Shown here: positions 9,958 to 15,230 of the stretch, piece after piece
Numbering within the stretch: the first letter of the stretch is position 1
How the letters are laid out: each line of letters opens with the position of its first letter
NCBI GenBank assembly: GCA_014191035.1
Contig: BJGX01000008.1
Span: 1-37,419, forward strand
DNA length: 37,419 nucleotides
From: Candidatus Saccharimonadota bacterium
GTDB taxonomy: Bacteria; Patescibacteriota; Saccharimonadia; CAILAD01; BJGX01
Direction: 5' to 3'
Program-made: the position numbers and the translations under genes
Notes under the pieces: generated by a model
What the model saw: only the letters and a program-made list of their open reading frames with translations
What the model was told of the DNA's origin: nothing
Database searches by the model: none

Positions 9958-11202
9958 TTAAAACAGCCTGCGTAGTAGATTTATTGATTCGCTAGTCAAT
10001 AAAACAAGGCTAAATAACAGCCCTAGAGTAGGAATAATGATAGAAACTTTAAAAATATTTTTATCTTGGGTAGGTTTATTTTTGTTCTTTTTATTGAGCT
10101 TAATGATAATCAAAGATAAGTTAACTAATGAAAATATAAATAATATTAGATAGCTAGTAGTTGCCGCCAAAAAGGTCAGATCTAAAAATATCGCCAAAAG
10201 AGATGCAATAACTACCACAAATATTATCGCTAGAGCTGGGGTTTTTCTTTTTTCATGAACCACGGCTAAGCGCTTATTTATCCATCCAGCCTCAGCCATG
10301 CCATACAAAAGTCTAGATCCACTTAAGACATGTGCTAGCACTCCACCCGCGGTAGCTGTTAACGCAACGATGGTGATAATCCAGGCTGGGGAATTGGCAA
10401 CTTTTGAAAATACTAAACTTAGCGGAGCATTAGAGCTACTTAGTTGATCAATTGGAATTGAAAATACAGCCACCACCGAAATTAAAATATAAAGTACTGT
10501 TGAAATAACTATCGATAATACTATTGCTCGGGGCATAGTTACTCTGGTTTTTTTAGTTTCCTCAGACAGGTGAACCGCGTCTTCGATGCCGATATATGCG
10601 TAAAAAGCCAAAAAAGCCCCTGTCATAACTCCACCGATTCCAACAGAAGACAAATCAAATATTTGACCTAACTTTGTTGGTAGATCACTAAATACTGCCC
10701 TGCCAAACCACACAATAGCCAAAAGACCAATTATCTCAATTATGGTATGGCCAGCCGAAAATTTTAACGACTCTTCAATTCCTATAAAAGCTAAGATACC
10801 AAAGGCTGCAATTACCAATGTCGAGGCAATTGGTATAGCAAGCCCTGTAGCCGAGTTTAAGTAGCCCCCAAAAGCTCTTGCTAAAGTTGCGGCCGATACG
10901 ATTGTCGCAGCCGACATTAATAATCCTACAATTAATGAAGCCCACTTTCTTTTAAAAGCAGAGTGCACATATGCTGAAACGCCCTCACTATAGGGCCTGC
11001 GGCTGGTTAGCTCGGCAAATGAAAGGGCGCTAAATGATGCAATAAACATGGCTATTATAAAGGCCAGTGGGGTGCTGAGTCCGGATTCGCCCGCCACCTT
11101 GCCGATTAACGAATAAATTCCAGCACCAACTATGTTTCCTAGCGCAAAAAGAGTTATTAAAAATAATCCTAAATTTCTTTTTAGTTTGTGGGTTCTAGCC
11201 AT
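9958..11202 (-). CDS. APC superfamily amino acid permease
   Basis: GNIVGAGIYSLIGKVAGESG near TM1 and GIEDAVHLSEETK near TM6; about 12 TM segments. Confidence 0.9.
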   Translation of the reverse strand: MARTHKLKRNLGLFLITLFALGNIVGAGIYSLIGKVAGESGLSTPLAFIIAMFIASFSALSFAELTSRRPYSEGVSAYVHSAFKRKWASLIVGLLMSAATIVSAATLARAFGGYLNSATGLAIPIASTLVIAAFGILAFIGIEESLKFSAGHTIIEIIGLLAIVWFGRAVFSDLPTKLGQIFDLSSVGIGGVMTGAFLAFYAYIGIEDAVHLSEETKKTRVTMPRAIVLSIVISTVLYILISVVAVFSIPIDQLSSSNAPLSLVFSKVANSPAWIITIVALTATAGGVLAHVLSGSRLLYGMAEAGWINKRLAVVHEKRKTPALAIIFVVVIASLLAIFLDLTFLAATTSYLILFIFSLVNLSLIIIKLNKKNKNKPTQDKNIFKVSIIIPTLGLLFSLVLLTSESINLLRRLF

Positions 11203-11274: not shown

Positions 11275-13923
11275 ATGAATAAGCAAAAATCTAGTTGGCT
11301 CAGTAAAATTTCAGTGCTATCCGCAAAGCATATTAATGCCGGATTTATTATATGGACAATTATTATTGCACTTGGACTTATTTGCTACTTGCAAGTAATG
11401 AAGCGTGAAGGGTTTCCAAATGTACAAAGCCCAATAGGCTCTGCAGTTATAGACTATCCTGTTAACAATAAGAATATTGTTGATGAAAAAATAACCAAGC
11501 CAGTTGTTGAGGAGACATTAAAAAATAGCAATGTCAAAAAAGTAACCGGTATCTCTAATGGTAACGGCTCAAACATAATTATTGAGTACAAAGAAAGTGC
11601 CGATGCCGAAGCTGAAAATAACAAAATATACAACTCTATAAAGGATAAAAACTTAATCCCTGAAGAAGTAGAGCCAATGTTTTCTAAGATTTCAGCTGGA
11701 AAATACAGAAGTAAATATGATGTTTTGTTGGCAATTCATTCGGAAAGTATAAATAATGAAGAATTATTCGATTATTCCCAAAAAATAAAAGATCAATTTA
11801 AAGATGAACTTAAAGACTCTCAAGTAGAGGTGGTCGATCAACTCTCGAGTGTAAAATTACCAAACGGCACGGAACAATCGGTTGTTCAGGGCTTTGACTG
11901 GTATGGATATAAAGACGGAAATGAAATTAAACTAGATCAGTCATTTATTCTAGGCATTCAAAAACCAGACGTTAAAGATCTGATTAGCTACAACGAAGAA
12001 ATAAACAGTCTTGTAAATAGATTCAACTCAAGCAATTCCAACATTCAAGCTTCGGTCGCAGCAGCCGAAGCGCCAGTGGTAGAATCGCAAATAGAAATGC
12101 TCCAAAAAAACCTGCTCGAAGGAATACTTATAGTCAGTTTGGTTTGTTTAGCCTTCATAAGTGTTCGAGCTGGCATAGTGGCTAGCATTTCTATGTTAGC
12201 TACCCTAACCCTCTCTATGATAATTCTTTATCTGTCGGGCATAACCTTAAATACCATTACGCTATTTTCTTTAATACTTTGTATCGGCTTAATTGTAGAC
12301 GACACAGTAATAATGATTGAAGCTATTGAAAAATATGAGGGCAAGTTTAACAACTTCATTGAAGTAGTGAGGTTCTCTGCAAACCGCGTGGCCGTAGCGA
12401 GTTTAGCCGGCACCCTAACAACCATGCTAGGTTTTGCGCCATTACTGTTTATTACTGGGGTACTCGGGAAATTTATTCGGATACTTCCTATTACTGTAAT
12501 GGTGAGCTTGGCCGTGAGCCTCCTTGTATCGGTTACATTTGTCCCATTCTTTGCGAGAGTTACCAAGCCCAAAAACCGTAAGAAAAAATCCAACTGTAAC
12601 CCCTTTGTTTGTTTAGAAAAAAATATTGGCAGATTTTTGCACGACACAATATTAAAAATAAATACTTCCAAGAAGAAATTATTGGCGATGCTTTCAAGCG
12701 TATCTCTAGGCCTAGTTATCATCGCATTTGGGGTCGTTAAATTATCGGCTCTAAAATTTGATATTTTCCCGCAAACTAAAAATACCAATAATTTAAAAGT
12801 AGTATATAGTGTCGAGCCATCGCAGGGTATAACAAACTCAAAGGAAAAATCAGCGACTATAAATAATGCCATCAACGAAAGTGTTGGTGAGTATGTAGAC
12901 AGCATAAGCTACTATTCAAGCGGAACCCCGCTCGGAGGTACTATCCAAATTAAACTAACACCATATGAAAAACGCGATCTCACCTCTTTAAAAGTTCTTG
13001 ATAAGCTAAAAACAAAGCTTGAAAAGATTGAGGGTGCTGACATTTATGCTTCGCAAGTCGATGTTGGTCCACCAAAAGATGAGTTCCCGTTTAAGGTGCA
13101 AATAAATAATGAAAATTCTCAGGCAGCTATTAGCGCCACTAATAAACTAAATGAGTATTTGAGTGGCCTAAGCCTAAAGCGACCGAACTCTTCAACAGCG
13201 AAAATAAATAAAACGGAATTTAAGATTGAATCTCCAATAGTTACAAGGGTAGATAATAATAAGGTTATAGAATTGAAAGCAGGGTTCGATTCTAATGACA
13301 CATCTACGCTTGTTAATCTTGCAAAAGCCGAAGTTGAAAAATATTTAGATAATTCAGATAACAGATTTGGGCTAGATAAATCAGACTTTAAATTTGATTT
13401 TGGGTCAGAATCTAGCAACCAGGAATCATTCAAAGGCGTGATTTATGCCCTACCTATACTCTTAATCGCGATGTATATACTTCTAGCAATTCAATTTAAG
13501 GGATTTATCCAGCCGCTGTTGATATTTATGGCTGTACCTTTTAGTTTGCCGGGAGTAGCAATTGGATTGACACTTACTAACAATCCAATTAGCTTCTTTG
13601 CTGTGGTCGGGTTCTTTGCTCTCATTGGTATAAGCGTTAACAACACAATTATGCTAGTTGATTTTGCCAATCAAAAACGCAGAGAAGGTTTTGGTCCTCG
13701 CGAGTCTATGGCTAAGGCTATAGAGGCTCGAATTCGACCATTGCTTGTAACAAGCATCACCGCCGTAGTGGCGCTTTTACCTCTAGTACTAACCGACCCG
13801 TTCTGGGAAAGCCTTGCTGTAACTCTAATGTTTGGTCTGATTAGTTCTACAATACTGGTGACAACGATATTTCCTTATTACTACTTAGCAATAGAAAAGT
13901 TGAGATCTAAGAAATACAATTAG
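11275..13923 (+). CDS. RND superfamily transporter (AcrB/CzcA/HAE-like)
   Basis: 882 aa with two hydrophobic halves and large soluble loops; GLIVDDTVIMIEAIEKYEG (TM4 Asp pair), GISVNNTIMLVDFANQKRREG..ARIRPLLVTSITAVVALLPL. Confidence 0.9.
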   Translation: MNKQKSSWLSKISVLSAKHINAGFIIWTIIIALGLICYLQVMKREGFPNVQSPIGSAVIDYPVNNKNIVDEKITKPVVEETLKNSNVKKVTGISNGNGSNIIIEYKESADAEAENNKIYNSIKDKNLIPEEVEPMFSKISAGKYRSKYDVLLAIHSESINNEELFDYSQKIKDQFKDELKDSQVEVVDQLSSVKLPNGTEQSVVQGFDWYGYKDGNEIKLDQSFILGIQKPDVKDLISYNEEINSLVNRFNSSNSNIQASVAAAEAPVVESQIEMLQKNLLEGILIVSLVCLAFISVRAGIVASISMLATLTLSMIILYLSGITLNTITLFSLILCIGLIVDDTVIMIEAIEKYEGKFNNFIEVVRFSANRVAVASLAGTLTTMLGFAPLLFITGVLGKFIRILPITVMVSLAVSLLVSVTFVPFFARVTKPKNRKKKSNCNPFVCLEKNIGRFLHDTILKINTSKKKLLAMLSSVSLGLVIIAFGVVKLSALKFDIFPQTKNTNNLKVVYSVEPSQGITNSKEKSATINNAINESVGEYVDSISYYSSGTPLGGTIQIKLTPYEKRDLTSLKVLDKLKTKLEKIEGADIYASQVDVGPPKDEFPFKVQINNENSQAAISATNKLNEYLSGLSLKRPNSSTAKINKTEFKIESPIVTRVDNNKVIELKAGFDSNDTSTLVNLAKAEVEKYLDNSDNRFGLDKSDFKFDFGSESSNQESFKGVIYALPILLIAMYILLAIQFKGFIQPLLIFMAVPFSLPGVAIGLTLTNNPISFFAVVGFFALIGISVNNTIMLVDFANQKRREGFGPRESMAKAIEARIRPLLVTSITAVVALLPLVLTDPFWESLAVTLMFGLISSTILVTTIFPYYYLAIEKLRSKKYN

Positions 13924-14699
13924 GGTCTAAGTGTGCCTGCAAAAATTTGCCAAGCTAGAGCAGATTTAGCGGTTAGGCTCAATATAATATAAACTCTTTC
14001 ACCATAAAGGTAATTTTTCCACGGCCCAATCTTTTTGTATTGCAAGAACATATTAAGAGCAAAACAGTTGAAGAAGAGGAATATAGTAATATAAATCCAG
14101 TATACAAATGCTGGAATAGGAGTATCTCCTGGCGCATTTGATGCACTAGCAAAGAAGTAAATTGCTATTACCACCCAAGGAACAATACCTGCAATCCAAC
14201 CAACATTGTAGCTAAGCCAGTTGGTCTTTTCGGTGGTCTGATTATGTATTTCCATAATCATTCCCAGTAGATTCATAACAAGTATCAATGTGAATAGCAT
14301 TATCAAGCTCGCAAGGTCGTAAATACCAGATAGCAATGCAATAGCAACAATCATAGTTGAAGCAGAAAAGCTGTATTCAATCCATCTGGCTCGATTCATA
14401 CCTTTTTGCAAATCTTTTTTGTAGCCCCTATACCAAATAGTCGAGATAATAAGATGGGCCGTCAAACTTAATCCTAAAAAGATCAAAATTGGCCACACTA
14501 GAGGCAATTGATATATATTTTCTGCAGCCGAATCTAATGATCGTGTATTTGTGTTGAAGGTTAAATAATTTAAATTTATTGGGAATTTAACATCAAACTT
14601 AGCAATTAAAGCCATTAGCCCTAGCTGCACTGCGAAAACTGCAACCATTATTAGATTGAACTTTCTCAATCCTTCAATTGTGATTTTTTTATTGGCCAT
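13920..14699 (-). CDS. Heliorhodopsin
   Basis: Seven TM segments; RWIEYSFSASTMIV (TM3 with counterion Glu108) and NYLYGERVYIILSLTAKSALAWQIFAGTLRP (TM7 retinal Schiff-base Lys245, codon 13965-13967) match the heliorhodopsin signatures. Confidence 0.96.
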   Translation of the reverse strand: MANKKITIEGLRKFNLIMVAVFAVQLGLMALIAKFDVKFPINLNYLTFNTNTRSLDSAAENIYQLPLVWPILIFLGLSLTAHLIISTIWYRGYKKDLQKGMNRARWIEYSFSASTMIVAIALLSGIYDLASLIMLFTLILVMNLLGMIMEIHNQTTEKTNWLSYNVGWIAGIVPWVVIAIYFFASASNAPGDTPIPAFVYWIYITIFLFFNCFALNMFLQYKKIGPWKNYLYGERVYIILSLTAKSALAWQIFAGTLRP

Positions 14700-14747
14700 T
14701 TTTTTCCTTTTTTAATTAATACTTATGCTTAATTATATACCAACTTG

Positions 14748-15230
14748 TCAAGATGAGGCAATTTTAACGTAATCTGTTTCAGTGCATATGTAGTAGGCCA
14801 AAATATTATGCTCCTCAAGTTTTGGTAAACTAAATTTTTTAGCAATCGCTACTATGTCTTCTAGGCTAGTGCTTTGCGTATCAACAATACTAAAAACCAA
14901 AACGGTTGGTAGGCTATAATGCCTTAGGTGAGTAAAAAGCTTGTTGGCAAAGAAAACTTCAATCTTATTAAGTCTTTGGTCGCGCGGTAATTTAGCCGGC
15001 AAGGATATTTGGCAAAGGTCTGGGCTATACACACATTGCACCGATGCTTGATCGTCTGAAATTATAATACTATCAAAACCAAGAAGTTCGTCGCCTTTTT
15101 TATAAACTGCATCAGGGTTTTCCATGAACTTGTCAAATTCCCATCCATTAAAATCAGGGCATATCGCAATAAACTTATCTAGGAGTTCACGCTCTCGCAT
15201 TTTCTTTTGAACATCAAGTTTACTAATCAT
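14748..15230 (-). CDS. Hypothetical soluble protein directly upstream of the heliorhodopsin gene
   Basis: 160-aa ORF, codirectional, 48 bp before the heliorhodopsin ORF; promoter-like TGTTATAAT 6 nt before its ATG. No family recognised. Confidence 0.75.
   Translation of the reverse strand: MISKLDVQKKMRERELLDKFIAICPDFNGWEFDKFMENPDAVYKKGDELLGFDSIIISDDQASVQCVYSPDLCQISLPAKLPRDQRLNKIEVFFANKLFTHLRHYSLPTVLVFSIVDTQSTSLEDIVAIAKKFSLPKLEEHNILAYYICTETDYVKIASS

Follow-up and report, generated by a model that had tools for sequence, protein, structure and literature searches.

The minus-strand gene at 13920-14699 of the window, the whole 37,419-nucleotide stretch of DNA analysed here, is confirmed by profile and sequence comparisons as a genuine heliorhodopsin, which we call HeR-A. 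It belongs to a clade in which phenylalanine stands at the position of His23 of the heliorhodopsin 48C12, and its gene has a permease as neighbour. The clade-wide residue change (H23F) and the new neighbour are among the less ordinary features of this gene. The occurrence of heliorhodopsins (HeRs) in the class Saccharimonadia is already known, since 80 of them were counted by Chiriac et al. 2022 (PMC9166423). The features of the locus are as follows:

9958-11202, minus strand: APC-family amino-acid permease (PF13520), which in four relatives starts 2-3 bp past the HeR stop
11275-13923, plus strand: AcrB-like RND permease, convergent with HeR-A (4-bp overlap) and lying between HeR-A and the amino-acid permease
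13920-14699, minus strand: heliorhodopsin (HeR-A), 259 aa, with the E108 counterion, S241xxxK245, H82 and F22 at the 48C12 His23 position
14732-14737, minus strand: TATAAT, a promoter-like -10 box some 33 bp ahead of the HeR-A start, a consensus match only
14748-15230, minus strand: hyp160, an orphan protein of 160 aa encoded 48 bp upstream of HeR-A

The window encodes a heliorhodopsin

The HeR-A open reading frame has exactly the bounds 13920-14699 on the minus strand, with an ATG start and a product of 259 aa; the plus-strand reading of the same interval contains many stops. The protein matches Pfam PF18761 (294.6 bits; cut-off 26.7) and the NCBIfam heliorhodopsin equivalog NF038020 (313.8 bits, 7.5e-94; cut-off 100) over its full length, and the type-1 rhodopsin profile Bac_rhodopsin PF01036 gives no match. 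Solved heliorhodopsins rank first among PDB chains (TaHeR 6is6, E = 9e-76), and the AlphaFold model (pLDDT 83.7) has its best PDB matches in the heliorhodopsins 7u55 and 6is6 (TM-score 0.86-0.87). The family assignment made in a preliminary description of this DNA is thus upheld far above profile cut-offs, and both residues named there are found at the claimed positions. RWIEYSFSAS carries the TM3 glutamate counterion, E108, which aligns with E107 of 48C12, and NYLYGERVYIILSLTAKSALAWQIFAGTL carries the TM7 SxxxK motif (S241-L-T-A-K245). By homology, HeR-A probably binds retinal through a Schiff base on K245 with E108 as counterion. Hydrophobicity and loop-charge analysis shows seven hydrophobic segments, with 12 K/R in the loops on the N-terminal side versus 4 on the opposite side; the predicted orientation is N-in, in line with the inverted topology already proposed. 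The HeR domain spans residues 11-257 of the 259, and a fused signal-transducing domain (MORN, zinc ribbon) is absent. Values of dN/dS among close relatives lie between 0.027 and 0.056; this strong purifying selection argues that HeR-A is maintained. The promoter-like box before the gene, with TATAAT...TAAGCATAAG similar in most HeR-A relatives, suggests that HeR-A can be transcribed alone; promoter-like sites number 5, against 6.9 expected in shuffles.

The host genome (G000), that of a very small freshwater bacterium dependent on a host, belongs to the Saccharimonadia (CPR) and comprises 685 kb in 18 contigs at 93.6% completeness. Its nearest relatives are Patescibacteria/Saccharibacteria, among which are several UBA4664 genomes and several recovered from lakes, so that the CPR-type genome surmised earlier from the window is borne out. 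HeR genes are present in 101 of 393 Saccharimonadia genomes, and one class member has a HeR identical to one recorded from Candidatus Saccharibacteria. A quick tree, in which long branches are flagged, places HeR-A in a well-supported clade of the family, and a search of viral contigs found no relative. A type-1 rhodopsin (PF01036) was not found in G000, while seven class genomes match this profile over its cut-off; all seven (G022, G069, G111, G174, G228, G335 and G343) also carry a HeR.

Phenylalanine replaces His23 throughout the HeR-A clade

In 48C12, a hydrogen-bond network leads from the Schiff base to Glu107 and His80 and on to His23, Gln26 and Trp246, and also reaches Asn16, Tyr92, Glu230, Arg104 and Glu149 (PMC9726877). 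The window protein retains this entire network except His23, which is Phe22. The His23/His80 pair, typical of heliorhodopsins without strictly defining them, is consequently incomplete, H80 being kept as H82. Phenylalanine occupies the His23 position in all 10 testable HeR-A proteins and in none of 70 further canonical HeRs of the class in which a residue can be read at that site (69 His, 1 Leu), a count from which eight proteins of the second HeR type described below (HeR-B; 7 His, 1 Gln) were kept out. A set of 57 HeRs taken from other genomes also lacks it throughout (54 His, 3 Leu). The laboratory mutants H23F and H80F significantly slow the 48C12 photocycle (PMC9726877). Because the lineage has phenylalanine for His23 and keeps the rest of the network, an unusually slow photocycle is predicted for HeR-A by analogy, so that a natural, clade-wide substitution leads from sequence to a photocycle prediction.

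The same substitution bears on whether HeR-A could transport protons, as a viral HeR does (PMC9448325). CPR cells have few routes to a proton gradient, which speaks for such an activity. However, bacterial HeRs are described as being without ion pumping activity (PMC11109279), and loss of His23 takes away part of the proton-transfer network, so that we regard proton transport by HeR-A as highly improbable.

Gene neighbourhood of HeR-A

The gene order SNase - hyp160 - HeR - APC permease is found in four genomes of two genera (G007, G009, G011 and G012), all with the narrow HeR-to-permease gap given above. In the window, the permease is the next same-strand gene after HeR-A, with the RND gene interposed; insertion of the RND gene between the two is the simplest reading. 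The adjacency of HeR and permease is confined to one family and is absent there in G002 and G010. Permeases are not among the ten groups into which Cho et al. (PMC11109279) sorted the neighbours of bacterial HeRs. The linkage is broken or missing in several genomes, which counts against the permease as partner; the permease is the best partner candidate for HeR-A, with weak support. The HeR-permease order points to a candidate partner in a bacterium that is likely to rely on other organisms for amino acids; more generally, each HeR clade with a fixed neighbour supplies a testable partner for HeR function.

Saccharibacteria are regarded as monoderm bacteria. The interposed RND permease (11275-13923) has 882 aa, below the usual length, and lies in a presumably monoderm CPR genome.

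The upstream neighbour, hyp160, is encoded by 12 of the 393 genomes of the class, every one of them HeR-positive. Within the family it is present in 11/11 HeR-positive and 0/2 HeR-negative genomes, a contrast for which the Fisher test ignores phylogeny, and the co-occurrence may stem from shared ancestry. The gene adjoins HeR-A in seven genomes and lies away from HeR in four family genomes. No Pfam or NCBIfam family matches hyp160, whose predicted fold is alpha-beta. A structure search for its function returned SfsA as best match (E = 0.063), which is not significant, and below it, among others, Holliday-junction resolvases and other PD-(D/E)XK nucleases, none of them significant. We infer that the permease and hyp160 are the best candidates for the output of HeR-A.

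Other arrangements occur among related genomes. In G013, of the same order, a response regulator, a histidine kinase and a HeR gene are co-directional (L023:6992-9520), with 55 bp between kinase and HeR, and G014 has a similar arrangement (L037). In two relatives (L021:5873-7741 and L022:6992-8856), a Nudix gene, IPP-isomerase-like by eye, is followed co-directionally by a gene for an unknown protein of 166/168 aa and by HeR.

These surroundings raise the alternative that HeR-A is an oxidative-stress-type sensor, a type proposed for the HeRs of monoderms, in which light would trigger redox defence by way of genes nearby or farther off rather than transport. Published work connects HeRs with redox genes and with two-component systems (PMC8612252), and a same-order relative has the kinase arrangement just described, but neither a histidine kinase nor a response regulator could be recognised beside HeR in the window. 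In most of the family, TrxB follows HeR at a distance of one to three genes on the downstream side, although it is a conserved housekeeping gene; many other Saccharimonadia HeRs adjoin msrA, although that linkage is a property of another HeR clade. On balance, a sensor of this type appears unlikely.

Carotenoid genes and the source of retinal

A search for blh/BCD found nothing in G000, whereas the identical search detected the gene in Aquiluna IMCC13023, and an RPE65-type cleavage oxygenase was likewise not found, with positive controls detected. Both results accord with the preliminary suggestion that retinal is imported or made elsewhere. That suggestion came with the statement that the window holds no carotenoid or retinal genes, which stands for the window; the genome has a complete carotenoid cluster on another contig (C6, L253:8171-14230). 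It contains CrtI (1.3e-154), a polyprenyl/GGPP synthase (crtE-like), CrtB, the lycopene-cyclase subunits crtYc and crtYd, and a fusion of a UbiA prenyltransferase with a glycosyltransferase. Contamination is argued against by the position of the cluster, which adjoins nusG-rplK-rplA in four family genomes. Genome-wide, the proposed check for blh and crt genes thus turns up the latter alone. Since the full cluster is accompanied by no recognised blh or RPE65-type gene, only the cleavage step is missing, and the earlier picture of an organism with little metabolism fails to describe its carotenoid genes. The product may be either beta-carotene or a C50 carotenoid; C50 carotenoid genes were reported earlier for Baikal-deep-G192 (PMC9948471). 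A pathway that makes carotenoids but stops short of cleavage gives added point to the question of how rhodopsins in CPR bacteria come by their retinal.

Across the class, 46 of 393 genomes carry crtB, and 23 of these 46 also have a HeR (p = 2e-4, Fisher, phylogeny ignored). Within the family it occurs in 4/4 genomes with a second HeR versus 3/9 others (p = 0.07, Fisher, phylogeny ignored). It was rejected as an exact marker of second-HeR genomes, as G001, G006 and G008 carry it too. In several genomes with HeR-A, crtB was not detected; these would need retinal from outside, unless gaps in the assembly hide the gene.

A second heliorhodopsin and homologues lacking the retinal lysine

G000 encodes a second heliorhodopsin, HeR-B, on another contig (C2, L032:6124-8419). 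HeR-A and HeR-B share about 43% identity and belong to clades far apart in the tree. The closest grouping of HeR-B is with HeRs from aquatic Actinobacteria, Aquiluna among them (SH-aLRT 100; quick tree with long branches flagged), a clustering that suggests that genes have passed between Saccharibacteria and their possible hosts. A TspO/MBR gene (PF03073, 2e-27) lies 57 bp upstream of HeR-B, and 6 bp downstream is a gene for a multi-helix protein of 222 aa. TspO is preceded by a divergent gene for a small ion channel, which is also met near HeR in five other genera. The literature search found no paper linking heliorhodopsin with TspO. A 267-aa protein adjoining HeR in Aquiluna looked TspO-like by eye, a likeness unsupported by Pfam, NCBIfam or hhalign.

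Outside the window, the most surprising observation is a set of Saccharimonadia HeR homologues in which A, S, V, R, E, L or Q takes the place of the retinal lysine and the Glu counterion is missing as well (loci L135, L136, L140, L141, L143, L144, L146, L148, L149, L150, L152, L153, L155, L160 and L161). Their locus has msrA upstream and RNA methyltransferase genes, serS and secA downstream, and in related genomes complete HeRs occupy it. The lysine is missing at 15/41 msrA loci, and the lysine or the glutamate at 25/41; Arg104 is retained in 15/15 of the lysine-less homologues. They seem to represent a rhodopsin fold that has lost its chromophore while its locus was retained. No paper joining heliorhodopsin and methionine sulfoxide reductase was found in the literature search.

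The existence of such proteins lends some weight to the view that the HeR-A gene is itself vestigial or light-independent, encoding for example a structural membrane protein. Two HeR-A relatives come from Baikal deep-water samples, where light is absent, which also speaks against a role in light perception. The window protein, however, keeps Lys245, Glu108 and every tested network residue but His23, and with dN/dS near 0.04 among close relatives we consider a vestigial or light-independent gene very unlikely.

Proposed function and comparison with known systems

The reading towards which we lean, if only slightly, is that HeR-A is a slow photoreceptor that uses scavenged retinal and acts on a membrane partner or neighbour. 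Light would isomerise the retinal of HeR-A and produce a long-lived state with an altered cytoplasmic face, so that the protein would serve as a light integrator and not as a pump. Retinal would enter from outside, from the host or the water, as G000 has no recognisable enzyme for the cleavage step. The output, modelled on OcHeR and AbHeR, would be a protein-protein effect on the neighbour. A more specific version, in which this slow, His23-less HeR gates amino-acid uptake through the neighbouring permease using environmental retinal, as a light-timed scavenging switch, is speculative and rather improbable.

Among characterized heliorhodopsins, 48C12 (PDB 6su3, 6uh3) is about 40% identical to HeR-A and shares with it the intracellular network N16-H80-Y92-E230-R104-E149 and the E107/K241 pair (48C12 numbering); H23F is known in 48C12 only as a laboratory mutant, whereas in HeR-A it is natural and clade-wide. 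TaHeR of a Thermoplasmatales archaeon (PDB 6is6, 7u55) is closer, with about 50% full-length identity in the fold match (TM-score 0.87), and has Glu108 and SxxxK in common with HeR-A, but it carries His23 where HeR-A has phenylalanine, and its organism and gene neighbours differ. The HeRs of Chiriac et al. (PMC9166423) agree with HeR-A in family and host class; the passages of that paper that were consulted are silent on an H23F clade, hyp160 and the permease order. The SacR type-1 rhodopsins (PMC9296517) are, like HeR-A, retinal proteins of Saccharibacteria without blh; they differ in being outward proton pumps of another family, of which G000 has none. Two cases serve as a model of a HeR that influences a protein encoded next to it: OcHeR, which acts on the ABC exporter OmrDE (PMC11109279), and AbHeR, which acts on glutamine synthetase (PMC9529153); the neighbour of HeR-A, unlike either, is an APC amino-acid permease.
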